NCBI GenBank assembly: GCA_026989375.1
Contig: JALSJJ010000231.1
Location: 1-40,460, forward strand
Length of the DNA stretch: 40,460 bases
Source: Rhodothermus sp.
GTDB lineage: Bacteria > Bacteroidota > Rhodothermia > Rhodothermales > Rhodothermaceae
Direction of reading: 5' to 3'
In this document: positions 18,783 to 25,192 of the stretch, in pieces
How the letters are laid out: each line of letters opens with the position of its first letter
How positions within the stretch are numbered: the stretch's first letter is position 1
Made by a program: the position numbers and the translations under genes
The notes under the pieces: model-generated
Databases searched by the model: none
Told to the model about the DNA's origin: nothing
What the model saw: the letters and a program-made list of their open reading frames with translations, nothing else

Positions 18783-19430
18783 TCAGGGAAGCCGGCGGAA
18801 GATTGCACGAATGCGCCCGATGATGTAGCAGCCCGGGTCGTCTGGCGGGAAGACTTCTTCTAAATAGGTCCGGTTGGCCGGTTGCAGGTGGATGCGGTTG
18901 TTCGCGAAGACGAAGCGACGCGCCAGCAGCAGCTCGCCCACCAGACAGGCGACCAGCTCCCGGTTGTTCAGCGTGCGCCAGGGCGTCTCCTCGATCAAAA
19001 GTAGATCCCCTTTGAAGATGCCTTCGCCGCTCATGCCGTCATCGCCGGCCCGTCCGATGAGGCAGGTGTCGGGGTCAAGGCCGCGAGGCAAGAAGAACGG
19101 ATCGACGGAGAGGAATGCGACCGGGCGTGTTCGCAACCGCTCGGGTTCATGACTGGCCGTGCGGCTGACAACGGGAAGGCTGGGGATCTCGTCAGTCAGA
19201 GCAAAGGGGTCCTCGGTATCAAGCAGATGGAGGCCACGGGCGGCGCCGGGGTCGCGGCGCAGGTAGCCCTTCTTTTCCAGGGCCTGAAGCAGCTTGAACA
19301 CACCGTTGGTGGAGCGAATGCCCAGCGCCTCGCCAATTTCCTGCAAGGTGGGGGGTTTGCGATGGCGGCGCTGGTAAGCGCGGATGAACTCGTAGGCTTC
19401 GTTTTGTCGGGCAGTTAGTCGGCCTTTCAT
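18783..19430 (-). CDS. LexA-like repressor with degenerate self-cleavage site
   Basis: A 215-residue LexA homologue. Residues 1-70 form the LexA winged helix (LTARQNEAYEFIRAYQRRH; PPTLQEIGEALGIRSTNGVFKLLQALEKKGYL), and 85-215 align with the S24 peptidase-like latent domain. Against E. coli LexA, LPVVSRTASHEP (85-96) aligns with LPLVGRVAAGEP, so the scissile Ala-Gly is Ser93-His94. GDDGMSGEGIFKGD (129-142) puts Gly132 at the catalytic Ser. GELLLARRF (165-173) puts Ala170 at the catalytic Lys. The protein should therefore not self-cleave, while DNA binding and dimerisation (the C-terminal fold looks intact) are probably kept. It is divergent from mraZ and has two palindromes upstream that may be its own operators. 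Whether it is an SOS regulator or a repurposed repressor is unknown. Confidence 0.87.
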   Translation of the reverse strand: MKGRLTARQNEAYEFIRAYQRRHRKPPTLQEIGEALGIRSTNGVFKLLQALEKKGYLRRDPGAARGLHLLDTEDPFALTDEIPSLPVVSRTASHEPERLRTRPVAFLSVDPFFLPRGLDPDTCLIGRAGDDGMSGEGIFKGDLLLIEETPWRTLNNRELVACLVGELLLARRFVFANNRIHLQPANRTYLEEVFPPDDPGCYIIGRIRAIFRRLP

Positions 19431-19463
19431 GGGAGCGTATGCAGAAGGTGATCTGCTGATCTA

Positions 19464-19470
19464 CAAGATA
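19464..19470 (-). promoter_or_regulatory. Probable -10 element of the LexA-like gene
   Basis: On the minus strand, TATCTTG lies 34 bases upstream of the ATG. It matches the -10 elements proposed for pyrG and mraZ. No good -35 hexamer is found at 16-18 bases; that region is occupied by the nearer palindrome (19476-19491), as expected for a repressed or activator-dependent promoter. Confidence 0.45.
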
Positions 19471-19475
19471 AGAAA

Positions 19476-19491
19476 GTGAAAATATTTTTAC
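19476..19491. promoter_or_regulatory. Putative operator 1 (GTGAAA-N4-TTTTAC)
   Basis: GTGAAAATATTTTTAC is an inverted repeat with one mismatch to GTGAAA-N4-TTTCAC. It lies 46-61 bases upstream of the LexA-like start, over the expected -35 region of that gene. Confidence 0.55.
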
Positions 19492-19507
19492 CATGTCAAA
19501 TGAAGAG

Positions 19508-19523
19508 GTGAAAATTATTTCAC
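19508..19523. promoter_or_regulatory. Putative operator 2 (perfect palindrome GTGAAA-N4-TTTCAC)
   Basis: GTGAAAATTATTTCAC has perfect 6-base arms. Its centre is 32 bp from that of operator 1, about three helical turns, so two dimers would bind on the same face of the DNA. It is about 90 bases from the mraZ -35 element on the other side. Confidence 0.6.
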
Positions 19524-19614: not shown

Positions 19615-19643
19615 TTGACTTTTTGAAAAAAACCCTTACCTTG
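19615..19643 (+). promoter_or_regulatory. mraZ / dcw cluster promoter
   Basis: TTGACT (19615-19620), 16 bases, then TACCTTG (19637-19643). The -35 is close to consensus and the -10 is like those of pyrG and the LexA-like gene. It would start transcription near 19650, inside the run of GTGGGR boxes, leaving a leader of about 65 bases before the mraZ ATG. Confidence 0.6.
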
Positions 19644-19667
19644 TGGGAACGGTGGGGAAAAGTGGGG
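19643..19667 (+). promoter_or_regulatory. Three MraZ-binding boxes
   Basis: GTGGGA (19643-19648), GTGGGG (19652-19657) and GTGGGG (19662-19667) are direct repeats with 9- and 10-base periods. MraZ is known to bind tandem TGGGN boxes with a 10-base period ahead of its own gene. They cover the region just downstream of the -10 element, which fits autorepression of the whole cluster. Confidence 0.8.
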
Positions 19668-19714
19668 AATTTTCCCATACCCTCACGTAAGGTGTTGGGT
19701 GCTGCGCAAGAACG

Positions 19715-20158
19715 ATGGCGGGCTTCAAGGGACAGGCCGAGTATTCTGTGGACGAGAAAGGCCGGGTGGCCATCCCGGCCAAAATGCGGGCTGTCCTGAA
19801 GCCCGAAGCCAAAGGGACGTTCACGGTTACACGGGGCTTCGAGCGGTGCATCTTTCTCTATCCGCTCGACCGATGGGAGGAGATAGAGGCGAAGATGATG
19901 TCGCTCAACCTATACAACCGGGAGACGCGCAACTTCGTGCGGTTGATCTTGCGCTGGGCCGAGGAGGTCACGCTGGACAAGCAGGGACGGGTCGTGTTGC
20001 CCAAGCCGCTGATGGAATATGCGGGTATTACGGATCGGGCGCTGATCATGGGCGCGCTCGATCATATTGAAATCTGGAATCCGGCCACGTTTAATCAGTA
20101 CATGAATGAGCAACCCATGGACTACGAAACACTGGCCGAACAGGTGATGGGGGTGTGA
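19715..20158 (+). CDS. mraZ: Transcriptional regulator MraZ
   Basis: MraZ is an AbrB-like DNA-binding protein that controls the division and cell wall cluster, which it heads. The 147-residue product has the two swapped-hairpin repeats typical of the family: FKGQAEYSVDEKGRVAIPAK (about 4-23) and VTLDKQGRVVLPKPLMEYAG (about 86-105). It assembles as a ring-shaped oligomer in studied species. Its promoter carries three GTGGGR boxes. The stop overlaps the GTG start of rsmH, so the two are translationally coupled. Confidence 0.95.
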   Translation: MAGFKGQAEYSVDEKGRVAIPAKMRAVLKPEAKGTFTVTRGFERCIFLYPLDRWEEIEAKMMSLNLYNRETRNFVRLILRWAEEVTLDKQGRVVLPKPLMEYAGITDRALIMGALDHIEIWNPATFNQYMNEQPMDYETLAEQVMGV

Positions 20159-21144
20159 GTGCTGTGCAGAAACATACCGGCAGTGCTGCAGCGGGACCTT
20201 ATGGGTCGCCGTACCATGTGCCTGTTCTTTGTCAGGCTGTTGTTGAAGGACTGATCACCCATCCCGCCGGCTGCTATGTAGACGCCACCATTGGAGGAGG
20301 TGGCCACGCGGCAGCGTTGCTCGATGCACTGGCACCTGAGGGGCGGGTGATCGGGATCGATCGGGATCCGGAAGCGCTGACAGTAGTGCGCCGACGCCTG
20401 GCGGAGGCGATAGCTGCTGGACGGCTGCAGCTCGTGCAGGGTAATTTCGCCGATCTGGAAGGTCTCCTGGACGAGTTGGGGGTGCCGTCCATCGACGGGC
20501 TTTTGCTGGACCTGGGCGTGTCATCGCATCAGCTCGATGACGCGATGCGCGGGTTCAGCTTCCGGGCCGAAGGACCGCTGGATATGCGAATGGATCCTTC
20601 AAGTCCGGGACCGACAGCCGCGCAGTTGCTGGAGCGATGGAGTGCGTATGAGCTGGCCGACGTGTTGCATCGCTATGGCGAAGAGCCACGGGCGCGCAAA
20701 CTCGCTCGGGCAATTTATCAAGCCCGGCCGATCCGCACTACTGCCGAATTGGCTGAAGTAGTGCGGCGTGAAGTGCCGGCCCGTGAAGTGACCAAGACGC
20801 TGGCGCGGGTTTTTCAGGCGCTACGCATTGCGGTTAACGACGAGCTGCGGGTGCTGGAACGTGTGCTGGAGGCTGCCACGCGGCGGGTGCGTCCGGGAGG
20901 ACGCCTGGCGGTGCTCAGCTACCATTCGCTGGAGGATCGGCGCGTGAAGCGCTTTCTGCGCTACGGCAATCTGGAAGGGAAGCCGGTCCGTGACTTCTAC
21001 GGACGGCTGGTGAGTCCCTGGCGTCCGCTGACCCGTCGGGCGATACGTCCCTCAGCCGACGAAGTCGTGGTCAATCCCCGCGCTCGAAGTGCCCGGCTGC
21101 GGATTGCTGAGCGTGTGGCCGAACCAGCCTTCGAAAATCCATGA
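20155..21144 (+). CDS. rsmH: 16S rRNA (cytosine-1402-N4)-methyltransferase RsmH
   Basis: RsmH (MraW) methylates the N4 of C1402 in the 16S rRNA decoding centre. The 329-residue protein has YHVPVLCQAVVEGL, SAM-binding YVDATIGGGGHAAALL (about 41-56), LLLDLGVSSHQLDDAMRGFS and the C-terminal LAVLSYHSLEDRRVKRF, all diagnostic. The GTG at 20155 overlaps the mraZ stop; a second GTG at 20164 is a possible alternative, and conservation begins only after about residue 18. Its own stop overlaps the next gene's ATG (ATGA). Confidence 0.96.
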   Translation: MSAVQKHTGSAAAGPYGSPYHVPVLCQAVVEGLITHPAGCYVDATIGGGGHAAALLDALAPEGRVIGIDRDPEALTVVRRRLAEAIAAGRLQLVQGNFADLEGLLDELGVPSIDGLLLDLGVSSHQLDDAMRGFSFRAEGPLDMRMDPSSPGPTAAQLLERWSAYELADVLHRYGEEPRARKLARAIYQARPIRTTAELAEVVRREVPAREVTKTLARVFQALRIAVNDELRVLERVLEAATRRVRPGGRLAVLSYHSLEDRRVKRFLRYGNLEGKPVRDFYGRLVSPWRPLTRRAIRPSADEVVVNPRARSARLRIAERVAEPAFENP

Positions 21145-21572: not shown

Positions 21573-23666
21573 GTGTGTGCCGTGGAGCCCCGCGATCAAA
21601 TGCTTACGCGCATGTATGGGGTGTTGGTATTGATGGCACTATGGCCGCTGGCCATCGTGGGACGGATGCTCTGGATCTATCTGGGAGAAGGAGCAGCATT
21701 GCGAGACGAGGGGCGCCGCCAAGTACGGGCGGTTGTGGACATTCCTGCCATGCGGGGCGAAATCCTCGACCGCACTGGAAAGGCGTTGGCCGTCAACACG
21801 GTGCGTTATGACCTGGCACTTGATCCGGAAGTCGAAGGCTTTGAAGCACGGGCGGCTGTGTTCTTTGAAAGACTGGCCCGTTTGACCGGAAGGCCGGCTG
21901 CATATTTTCGGCGACGCGTAGCCCGCCGGCAAAGTCCCCGCTATGTAGTGCTCTGGCGCGGTCTTACCGAGGCGCAGAAGGCGGCCATTGAAAGCTGGAA
22001 AGTGCCCGGTGTCATTCTGGAGCCCCGTTTCAGCCGCTGGTATCCCTACAGGTCGCTGGCGGCGCATGTGCTCGGCTATGTAGGAGCCGATGGGCGAGGG
22101 CTGGCGGGGCTGGAACTGCAATATGATGCATACCTGCGGGGGCGGCCAGGGCGGCGTGTGGTCCAGCGCGACCGTCGGGGGGTACTCAAGCCAATGGTGG
22201 GCGGCGAAGTCGTCGAGCCCGAGCATGGACAGACGCTGGTGCTCACGATCGATCTGATCCGGCAGACTATTCTGGAGGAAGAACTGGCCCGGGGAGTAGC
22301 TGAAGCAGCGGCACGCTGGGGAACCGCCATTGCCATGGACCCGCGTACGGGCGCGGTGCTGGCCATGGCCAATGTGCCCACGTTTGATCCTAACCAGCCG
22401 GCCACAGTCCCCGAGGCGTTTCGGCGCAATCGGGCCATTACCGACCGCATGGAGCCCGGCTCGACCTTCAAGCTTATTACCGCCATTGCGGCCTTGGAGC
22501 AAGGCGTGGCGGCCCTTGAGGACACCATTGATACCGGAGCTGGCTGGGCCGTCTTTGGCGGTCGCACCATGCGCGACGTGCATGCCTACGGACGCATCTC
22601 TTTTGCGGATGCGCTCGTGCTGTCGAGCAACGTGGGCGTTGCCAAAGTGGCCACCCGGCTTAAGCCAGGTATCCTTTACCAGTATGCCCGTAATCTGGGC
22701 TTCGGGCAGCCGACCTGGATTGACCTGCCGGGTGAGGTGAGCGGCACGCTGAAGCGTCCATCCCGTTGGAGCGGCACCACGTTGACTTCGATGAGTATTG
22801 GCTACGAAGTCGATGCAACGCCGCTCCAGATCCTGACCGCTTACTGTGCGCTGGCTAACGGTGGACTGTTGGTGCGGCCTTATGTGGTGGCTGAGCGGCG
22901 GACGCTTACGGGCGAAGTGGTCTGGAGGGCACGGCCCGACTCGATCCGGCGAGCCTTCCGTCGCGAAACGGCCCGACGGCTGTTGCCCGTATTCGAGCGG
23001 GTGGTGAATGAAGGCACAGGACGCGCGGCGCGGATTGAAGGACTCCCGGTGGCCGGCAAAACGGGCACAGCCTCCAAGGTAGTGAACGGTCGCTATCGAC
23101 CCGGGGCTTATCGGGCATCGTTTGTGGGCTTTTTTCCGGCCGACGATCCGCAGGTAGCGCTGATCGTGGTGCTCGACGAACCGCGCCGTAGCATCTATGG
23201 GGGAGAGGTAGCCGCACCCATCTTTCGACGGATTGCCGAGCGCTGGATCAGCACGTTCCCGAAAATTGCCGAACGTATGACGCCCCATGAGACGGTGCCT
23301 GCGCAGATTCTTCGGCCGCTGCCTTCGGTTATCGGACAGCCACTGGCCGTAGCAGCCGCTCGCCTCTGGAGCGAAGGGTTAAAGGTGCGAACAACTGCCT
23401 CCGGCGATCGGCCGGCCATCGTGGTGGCCCAACAGCCATCGCCAGGCACGTCGGTAGAGCCGGGAACAACGGTGCGGCTGGAAGTGGCGCCCGATACGCT
23501 GAGACGCCGCATGCCTGATCTGCGGGGGATCAGCGCTCGGCAGGCAATTTACTGGCTGAATGCGCTCCGCGTGGCGGTGCGGGTGGAAGGTCATGGCCAG
23601 GTCGTTGCCCAGTGGCCGGAACCTGGAGCTCCCTTACCCAAGGAGGTATATCTGCGATGCCAGTAG
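21573..23666 (+). CDS. ftsI: Penicillin-binding protein, FtsI/PBP3 type with two PASTA domains
   Basis: Septal peptidoglycan transpeptidase, 697 residues. One N-terminal TM (about 15-37, VLVLMALWPLAIVGRMLWIY) is followed by the PBP dimerisation domain (RGEILDRTGKALAVN) and the transpeptidase with S297-T-F-K300, S351-S-N353 and K496-T-G498. Two PASTA domains end the protein (about 577-637, with SVIGQPLAVAAARLW, and 640-697, with MPDLRGISARQAIYWL). PASTA domains are absent from proteobacterial FtsI but occur in Bacteroidota and Gram-positives. The start is GTG 21573, 6 bases after GAGGT; later ATGs at 21600 and 21612 are alternatives. The murE ribosome site lies inside its last codons. Confidence 0.94.
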   Translation: MCAVEPRDQMLTRMYGVLVLMALWPLAIVGRMLWIYLGEGAALRDEGRRQVRAVVDIPAMRGEILDRTGKALAVNTVRYDLALDPEVEGFEARAAVFFERLARLTGRPAAYFRRRVARRQSPRYVVLWRGLTEAQKAAIESWKVPGVILEPRFSRWYPYRSLAAHVLGYVGADGRGLAGLELQYDAYLRGRPGRRVVQRDRRGVLKPMVGGEVVEPEHGQTLVLTIDLIRQTILEEELARGVAEAAARWGTAIAMDPRTGAVLAMANVPTFDPNQPATVPEAFRRNRAITDRMEPGSTFKLITAIAALEQGVAALEDTIDTGAGWAVFGGRTMRDVHAYGRISFADALVLSSNVGVAKVATRLKPGILYQYARNLGFGQPTWIDLPGEVSGTLKRPSRWSGTTLTSMSIGYEVDATPLQILTAYCALANGGLLVRPYVVAERRTLTGEVVWRARPDSIRRAFRRETARRLLPVFERVVNEGTGRAARIEGLPVAGKTGTASKVVNGRYRPGAYRASFVGFFPADDPQVALIVVLDEPRRSIYGGEVAAPIFRRIAERWISTFPKIAERMTPHETVPAQILRPLPSVIGQPLAVAAARLWSEGLKVRTTASGDRPAIVVAQQPSPGTSVEPGTTVRLEVAPDTLRRRMPDLRGISARQAIYWLNALRVAVRVEGHGQVVAQWPEPGAPLPKEVYLRCQ
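23640..23647 (+). promoter_or_regulatory. Ribosome binding site that fixes the murE start
   Basis: AAGGAGGT, a full anti-16S match, lies inside the end of ftsI, nine bases before ATG 23657. It rules in that ATG over an in-frame upstream start at 23612. Confidence 0.8.
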
Positions 23667-25192
23667 CTATCCCACGAGAACCGATCTCAATAGCTCACGT
23701 GCTTCAGCGTTTGGAGCGCGAAGGGCTGCTGCAAACGGTTGTCGGACCGACAGCCGACCGGCAGGTTACGCATCTGTCAGATAACAGTCAGGAGGTACGG
23801 GCCGAGGCACTGTTTGTGGCGGTGCGGGGTGAGCGTGTCGATGGACATCAATTTATAGAACAGGCTGTAGAGCAGGGAGCTGTGGTCGTCGTGGGAGAAA
23901 CGCTACCGGAGGGATGCGCCGAGCGCTTTCCGGCGACAACGTTTGTCCAGGTGTCGAATAGTCGGCGGGCGCTGGGGATTCTGGCCACCATCTTCCACAT
24001 GAATCCCGCCCGGCGACTGCGTCTGATTGGCATCACAGGTACCAACGGGAAGACGACTACGGCTTTTCTGGTGTATTACATGCTGAATGCGATCGGGGAG
24101 GAGACCGGGTTGATTGGGACGATCTGCTACCGATTTGGTCGGCACGAACTGCCCGCATTGAATACCACGCCTGGGCCGATTGAGCTAAACCATTTGCTAC
24201 GGCGCATGACGGGTGTTCCTTGTAGAAACTGCGTCATGGAAGTTTCGTCGCATGCGCTGGAGCAGGAGCGGGTAGCGGGATTGCCCTTCTCCATTGCGGT
24301 CTTTACCAACCTGACGCGCGACCACCTGGACTATCACGGATCGTTCGAAGCGTATTTAAAGGCCAAGAAGAAGCTCTTTGACAGGTTGACCTTTCGGGCA
24401 ACGGCGCTCTACAACATTGATGATCCCAGTGGTCCAGCACTTGTGGCCGACACGAAGGCCTGTCGCATCAGTTACGGCCTGCGGGAGGAAGCACAACTGC
24501 AAGTGCATATCGTCAGCCACAGCCTTGAGGGGCTGGGGCTCAACATAGACGGCCGTTTCCAGCGCTTTCCACTGGTAGGACGCTTCAATGCCTATAACCT
24601 GCTGGCGGCCTATGGGGTGGGCCGGGCGATGGGCTTGGATCCTGACCTGCTGTTGGAGGCGCTGAGTCAGGTGCCGCAGATTCCCGGTCGCTTTGAGCGC
24701 TTTACGTTTGAAGATGGCACGACAGCCATTGTGGATTACGCCCACACCCCTGATGCGCTCGAAAACGTGCTACGAACCATCCGTGAGGTAATGCCAGCGG
24801 GGGCGCGACTGTGGTGCGTCTTTGGATGTGGGGGCGAGCGCGATCGGGGTAAACGACCGGTAATGGGTACAATCGCCGAACGGTTAGCAGACTGTGTAGT
24901 CGTCACCAGTGATAATCCGCGCTCAGAAGATCCGCAGCAGATTTTCGAGGATATTCGGCGAGGGATGCGCCATCCTGAAGCAGCCCTGTGGGAAGTAGAT
25001 CGGGCGCGAGCTATTGAGCAGGTTGCGAAGCTGTGTCGTCCAGGCGATGTGGTGTTGGTGGCGGGAAAGGGCCATGAAGCTTACCAGCTTATCGGTACGG
25101 AAAGGATTCCTATGGACGACCGCCAGTTGGTGCGGGAGTTCTTCGAGCACTACCACACGCCGGCGCGCCCCCCTTCGTTCAGATTTTTGTAA
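23657..25192 (+). CDS. murE: UDP-MurNAc-tripeptide synthetase (meso-DAP-adding)
   Basis: MurE adds the third amino acid to UDP-MurNAc-L-Ala-D-Glu in the cytoplasm. The 511-residue protein has the Mur ligase N-domain (VTHLSDNSQEVRAEALFVAV), the ATP loop GITGTNGKTTT (125-135), MEVSSHALEQERV with the carbamylated-Lys region downstream, and a C-domain carrying D419-N-P-R422-SED, the DNPR motif that selects meso-diaminopimelate rather than lysine. It starts inside the last ten bases of ftsI. This predicts a DAP-type peptidoglycan. Confidence 0.95.
   Translation: MPVAIPREPISIAHVLQRLEREGLLQTVVGPTADRQVTHLSDNSQEVRAEALFVAVRGERVDGHQFIEQAVEQGAVVVVGETLPEGCAERFPATTFVQVSNSRRALGILATIFHMNPARRLRLIGITGTNGKTTTAFLVYYMLNAIGEETGLIGTICYRFGRHELPALNTTPGPIELNHLLRRMTGVPCRNCVMEVSSHALEQERVAGLPFSIAVFTNLTRDHLDYHGSFEAYLKAKKKLFDRLTFRATALYNIDDPSGPALVADTKACRISYGLREEAQLQVHIVSHSLEGLGLNIDGRFQRFPLVGRFNAYNLLAAYGVGRAMGLDPDLLLEALSQVPQIPGRFERFTFEDGTTAIVDYAHTPDALENVLRTIREVMPAGARLWCVFGCGGERDRGKRPVMGTIAERLADCVVVTSDNPRSEDPQQIFEDIRRGMRHPEAALWEVDRARAIEQVAKLCRPGDVVLVAGKGHEAYQLIGTERIPMDDRQLVREFFEHYHTPARPPSFRFL

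Follow-up and report, generated by a model that had tools for sequence, protein, structure and literature searches.

Two short palindromes of the form GTGAAA-N4-TTTCAC lie between a LexA-like gene and the divergent mraZ gene in Rhodothermus sp., raising the questions of which of the two genes they serve and which protein reads them. The window analysed here, meaning the whole stretch of 40,460 nucleotides (contig JALSJJ010000231.1, GenBank assembly GCA_026989375.1), contains both palindromes in a 284-bp intergenic region. An earlier note on this DNA had proposed a cooperative autoregulatory operator, possibly of LexA type. The features considered in this work are summarized in Table 1.

Table 1. 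Features of the LexA-like/mraZ locus, in coordinates of the window
Feature	Position	Strand	Sequence or size	Basis or remark
Protease-dead LexA paralogue (LexA_DNA_bind + degenerate S24)	18783-19430	minus	215 aa	profiles, alignment
Predicted -7 element of the LexA-like gene	19463-19470	minus	TATCTTGT	genus alignment
Operator site 1 (gene-proximal palindrome)	19476-19491		GTGAAAATATTTTTAC (minus strand reads GTAAAAATATTTTCAC)	1 mismatch
Operator site 2 (gene-distal palindrome)	19508-19523		GTGAAAATTATTTCAC	0 mismatches
Predicted mraZ promoter	19615-19644	plus	TTG-N19-TACCTTGT	conserved in genus
Presumed MraZ box of the division/cell-wall cluster	19643-19676	plus	TGGGA/GGGGA repeats every 10 bp	genus conservation
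mraZ (first gene of the dcw cluster, divergent neighbour)	19715-20158	plus		profile
rsmH	20155-21144			profile
ftsI-like	21573-23666			label from gene order
murE-like	23612-25192			label from gene order

The palindrome pair and its promoter context

The pair was described earlier as one perfect and one single-mismatch copy, 32 bp apart from start to start, and this description proved exact. The motif is best written as GTGA-N8-TCAC with an AT-rich centre. On the minus strand, relative to the ATG of the LexA-like gene, site 1 occupies -61 to -46 and site 2 occupies -93 to -78. Among 4000 dinucleotide shuffles of the intergenic region, none contained two sites and eight contained one. The alignment of this region within the genus displays as conserved blocks both palindromes, the -7 element of the LexA-like gene, the mraZ promoter, and the repeats that we take to be the MraZ box.

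The predicted -7 element begins 5 nt downstream of site 1 and reads TATCTTTG in several sister species; we take TATCTTGT/TATCTTTG to be a -7 element by comparison with the Bacteroidota consensus TAnnTTTG. In the predicted promoter, the spacer and the -33 edge are thus occupied by site 1, a position that would favour repression. The nearer palindrome had been placed over the -35 region, which comes close; no clear -33 hexamer of this promoter is visible in the sequence.

The LexA-like protein and its family

The window protein matches the LexA winged-helix domain PF01726 (E 4.2e-19, 68.5 bits versus a cut-off of 23.7) and the S24 fold PF00717 (36.8 bits versus 23.3), but does not reach the NCBI LexA equivalog TIGR00498 (94.6 versus 110.95 bits). 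Its AlphaFold2 model has a pLDDT of 91, and the best Foldseek matches of the predicted structure are all LexA structures. The segment D130-D131-G132-M133 stands at the catalytic-Ser motif. In an alignment with solved LexA structures, G132 falls on Ser119, A170 falls on Lys156, and the Ala84-Gly85 cleavage bond is matched by Ser-His in the window protein; close orthologues read SRTxS in this stretch, with no Ala-Gly. Of 45 relatives, 44 have Gly at the catalytic Ser position and all have Ala, Val, Ile, or Pro at the catalytic Lys position; D130, M133, and R171 are invariant among them.

Judged from these residues, this is no SOS LexA but a protease-dead paralogue of ancient origin (hereafter dead LexA), and the missing residues predict that it does not undergo RecA-stimulated self-cleavage. 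Because the Ser-Lys dyad and the Ala-Gly site are lost, the term "LexA-type" for its putative operator is confined to the fold and the DNA-binding mode and does not extend to the SOS function. In the recognition helix, 40 of the 45 relatives carry a family-specific Lys46, a position held by Glu in E. coli LexA and by Gln in the canonical LexA of the order; this residue may have changed in step with the half-site described below.

A maximum-likelihood tree with an E. coli outgroup sequence, whose bootstrap was not fully settled, placed the dead proteins on one side of a branch (98/98) and the LexAs with catalytic residues on the other. The dead side includes four proteins from Ignavibacteria/Kapabacteria-type genomes (L017, L021, L028, and L032); these share the DDGM motif, and they are encoded away from mraZ, without this operator, and have Gln at the Lys46 position. 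A diverged LexA paralogue that is divergent from mraZ in G048 (L204) reads DDSM, keeping the Ser, and has its Lys replaced by Arg, which may represent an intermediate step in the loss of the dyad.

A catalytic-LexA profile matched 111 of the 114 genomes of the order, most of them strongly; in Rhodothermus and G108, the dead paralogue was the sole match. A search for S24 proteins found one per Rhodothermus genome, with one more in G003. Canonical LexA is a separate gene from the dead paralogue and is present in nearly all other genomes of the order, and the searches indicate that a cleavable LexA is lacking from the thermophile lineage Rhodothermus. Two f2 genomes (G012 and G024; loci L072 and L076) carry two canonical lexA genes in tandem.

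Conservation, phasing, and genome-wide occurrence of the pair

Both palindromes are kept in all seven Rhodothermus genomes and in G033. Searches with the pattern derived from the window find such pairs before orthologues of 40-93% protein identity. Conservation upstream of orthologues had been proposed as a check, and a scan with a position weight matrix, built from sites of the same loci after initial matches with the pattern of the earlier note, detected a pair in helical phase at 35 of the 41 orthologous loci across the order. Recognisable sites, or the second site, are missing in a few orthologues (G108, one of two loci in G161, G177, and G196). The spacings across the order are 22, 31, 32, 33, 41, 42, 43, and 54 bp, corresponding to approximately 2.1, 3, 4, and 5.1 helical turns. 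A Rayleigh test of the spacing phase gave p ~ 4e-8 with 20 lineage entries and p = 0.002 with the eight distinct values, so that repeated relatives alone do not account for the phase. The windows into which all eight distinct spacings fall cover 29% of the spacings from 18 to 59 bp.

At one locus (L093, G088:C5:347001-367000), the dead-LexA orthologue contains an in-frame TGA, and its twin palindromes, 32 bp apart, lie roughly 0.5 kb upstream and remain close to mraZ. This gene is probably a decaying copy after an insertion.

As a presence/absence control, the upstream regions of mraZ were scored in genomes outside the earlier set of dead-LexA loci, most of them apparently without the gene. 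The sites were absent from all 29 regions without a dead-LexA gene (best score 7.7), whereas all eight further loci with the gene carried a strong site (minimum score 16.9), paired at 32 or 54 bp in seven of them. The site is thus present with the dead LexA and absent without it in this set, which indicates that it follows the LexA-like gene and not mraZ. In the f4 genomes G020 and G048, which have strongly diverged paralogues, the palindrome has diverged as well, to GTGTA-N6-TACAC. G092 (L198) retains a broken dead-LexA remnant (a frame with ...TDDGLNAVGIRKGDFLVIE...) beside mraZ and no longer has the palindromes.

With up to three mismatches allowed, the pair pattern occurs once per genome in each of the seven Rhodothermus genomes, always at this locus. 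A genome-wide regulon of GTGAAA-N4-TTTCAC, as envisaged earlier, did not emerge: with at most one mismatch, 2-5 sites per Rhodothermus genome were found versus 2-8 for the reversed control pattern, and with no enrichment over this control there is no sign of the box as a shared element of DNA-repair genes. In G002 and G003, the sole matches at this threshold were the pair itself, and searches of the order for perfect matches mostly returned this same locus in genomes with the dead-LexA gene. Since the pair follows the gene and is unique in each of the seven genomes, it has the character of an autoregulatory operator and not of a regulon motif. The proposal of a cooperative-looking autoregulatory operator gained support from its retention in relatives, the constant helical phase of the sites, and the co-occurrence with the gene, and we consider it very probable that the adjacent LexA-like gene is autoregulated, with the two palindromes as its operator.

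In the mechanism that we propose, one protein dimer would bind each GTGA-N8-TCAC palindrome through the LexA-type winged helix, and two dimers, spaced by whole turns along one face of the DNA, would bind cooperatively. The proximal dimer would block the LexA-like gene's promoter at its -33/spacer region. With neither the Ser-Lys dyad nor the Ala-Gly bond present, RecA-triggered self-cleavage would not relieve this repression, and the loop may act as a constant-level homeostat or be relieved by another signal. The sites, their conservation and phasing, their co-occurrence with the gene, their uniqueness in the genome, and the loss of the catalytic residues can be seen in the sequences themselves, whereas binding by the dead LexA, cooperativity, and repression rather than activation are inferred.

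The mraZ neighbourhood, other readings, and known LexA systems

At almost every orthologous locus (34-100% protein identity), the dead-LexA gene and mraZ-rsmH-ftsI-murE run divergently, and the distance from the operator to mraZ is fairly constant (~170-245 bp). The operator might therefore also serve the mraZ/dcw promoter, with the dead LexA acting together with MraZ as a dedicated local regulator of division and the cell wall, either through looping or by activating or repressing from upstream; as the pair is unique in the genome, mraZ/dcw is the only other obvious target. The sites, however, lie ~95 bp upstream of the mraZ promoter but adjoin that of the LexA-like gene, and the synteny could be passive inheritance. 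Moreover, mraZ persists in genomes that lack both the dead LexA and the palindromes, which argues that mraZ is independent of them and leaves a local division role hypothetical. We regard this extension as rather unlikely, and control of mraZ/dcw is, speculatively, the leading idea for a role of the dead LexA beyond self-control.

In several Rhodothermales genomes, with or without the dead LexA, canonical LexA-like boxes (CTACTGTGTGACATATGTGTG and TTACACATATTTACATATGTAA) precede mraZ, by ~140-180 bp in L180 (G167), L187 (G127), and L174 (G183), and they occur also at many dead-LexA loci. They are absent upstream of mraZ in Rhodothermus, the genus without a canonical LexA. These boxes suggest SOS control of the division/cell-wall cluster. 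A CACATAT box is found at dead-LexA loci in 21 of 34 genomes (34 copies versus 1.2 expected). As a mark specific to the dead LexA it failed the control, being enriched also before mraZ without the dead LexA (9 versus 0.9); the box is thus a feature of mraZ or of the region and not of the dead-LexA gene. A broader and rather doubtful scheme would make the region upstream of mraZ in this order a DNA-damage/division node, in which the dead LexA, SOS-controlled where a canonical LexA exists, throttles dcw transcription, and Rhodothermus has lost the cleavable LexA, keeping only the uncleavable one. If this were true, canonical boxes of the CACATAT class and the twin operator of the dead LexA would sit together before the division/cell-wall cluster.

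It is quite improbable that the palindromes are owned by another regulator, such as a CRP/FNR-family protein controlling the LexA-like gene. Although GTGA...TCAC looks like a CRP half-site, CRP sites have the spacing GTGA-N6-TCAC and the palindrome has N8, and a global regulator would be expected to have many sites, whereas this pair is unique per genome. The palindrome also tracks the dead-LexA gene in the control set and changes where the protein diverges (G020 and G048). We rejected this reading on spacing, uniqueness, and co-occurrence. Even harder to maintain is the reading that a functional SOS LexA uses this box and that RecA triggers the derepression of a DNA-damage regulon: the protein exceeds the Pfam cut-offs for LexA_DNA_bind and Peptidase_S24 and is the only LexA in the genus, but the replaced Ser and Lys, the missing Ala-Gly site, the score under the TIGR00498 cut-off, and the lack of enrichment of other sites in the genome all argue against it. 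The pair is AT-rich and palindromic, as would be expected had it arisen by chance or for purely structural reasons (an AT-rich inverted repeat or a terminator-like element), but the absence of two sites from every shuffle and the retention of the pair in phase over the order while the flanks diverge refute this reading almost completely.

LexA boxes differ widely among phyla. As the probable regulator of its own gene, the dead LexA resembles E. coli LexA in its winged helix and S24 fold, in its 16-bp palindrome with an AT-rich N8 centre, and in the autoregulation predicted here, and differs in lacking the Ser119/Lys156 dyad, the Ala-Gly bond, and a regulon. The half-site is GTGA in place of the CTGT of the E. 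coli box CTGT-N8-ACAG. Since the 16-bp geometry is kept, this is a half-site change and not a wholly different architecture. In sequence, the operator differs from the LexA boxes named in the earlier note, as had been stated there, and also from the Balneolaeota box.

Non-cleavable LexA is already known: that of Synechocystis sp. PCC 6803 lacks the Ala-Gly site and the catalytic Ser and is not an SOS switch (PMC7567884). The dead LexA shares these features, but it has also lost the Lys, occurs order-wide beside dcw, and has a local operator in place of the broad Synechocystis regulon. In Balneolaeota, the LexA box is a direct repeat, TTACACATATTTTWTACATA (TTACACATAT...TACATA), with an intact SOS regulon (PMC7739468). 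That lineage is related, and its box resembles the canonical LexA boxes of the Rhodothermus order; its LexA is a different protein, however, and its direct repeat contrasts with the palindromic GTGA-N8-TCAC. The non-canonical LexA of Bacteroidetes has a CI-type penta-helical HTH (PF01381), an intact S24 dyad, and other motifs, one of them CTAA-N5-TTAG, in a paper that mentions neither Rhodothermus nor Salinibacter (PMC8565304). Both it and the dead LexA are S24-family regulators of related phyla, but the dead LexA has a true LexA winged helix (LexA_DNA_bind) and no dyad. A search for literature on LexA in Rhodothermus or Salinibacter, or with the dcw cluster, returned nothing relevant, and no description of the subfamily, the operator, or the dcw link was found in the literature searched, which included few subscription journals.

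The locus thus points to an order-wide LexA subfamily without self-cleavage that has its own operator, GTGA-N8-TCAC, with one pair per Rhodothermus genome. The spacings of 2, 3, 4, and 5 turns offer a natural set of operators for studies of cooperative repressor binding. The family makes it possible to test what the LexA fold is used for once RecA is no longer sensed, and whether the dead LexA links DNA damage to the division cluster.
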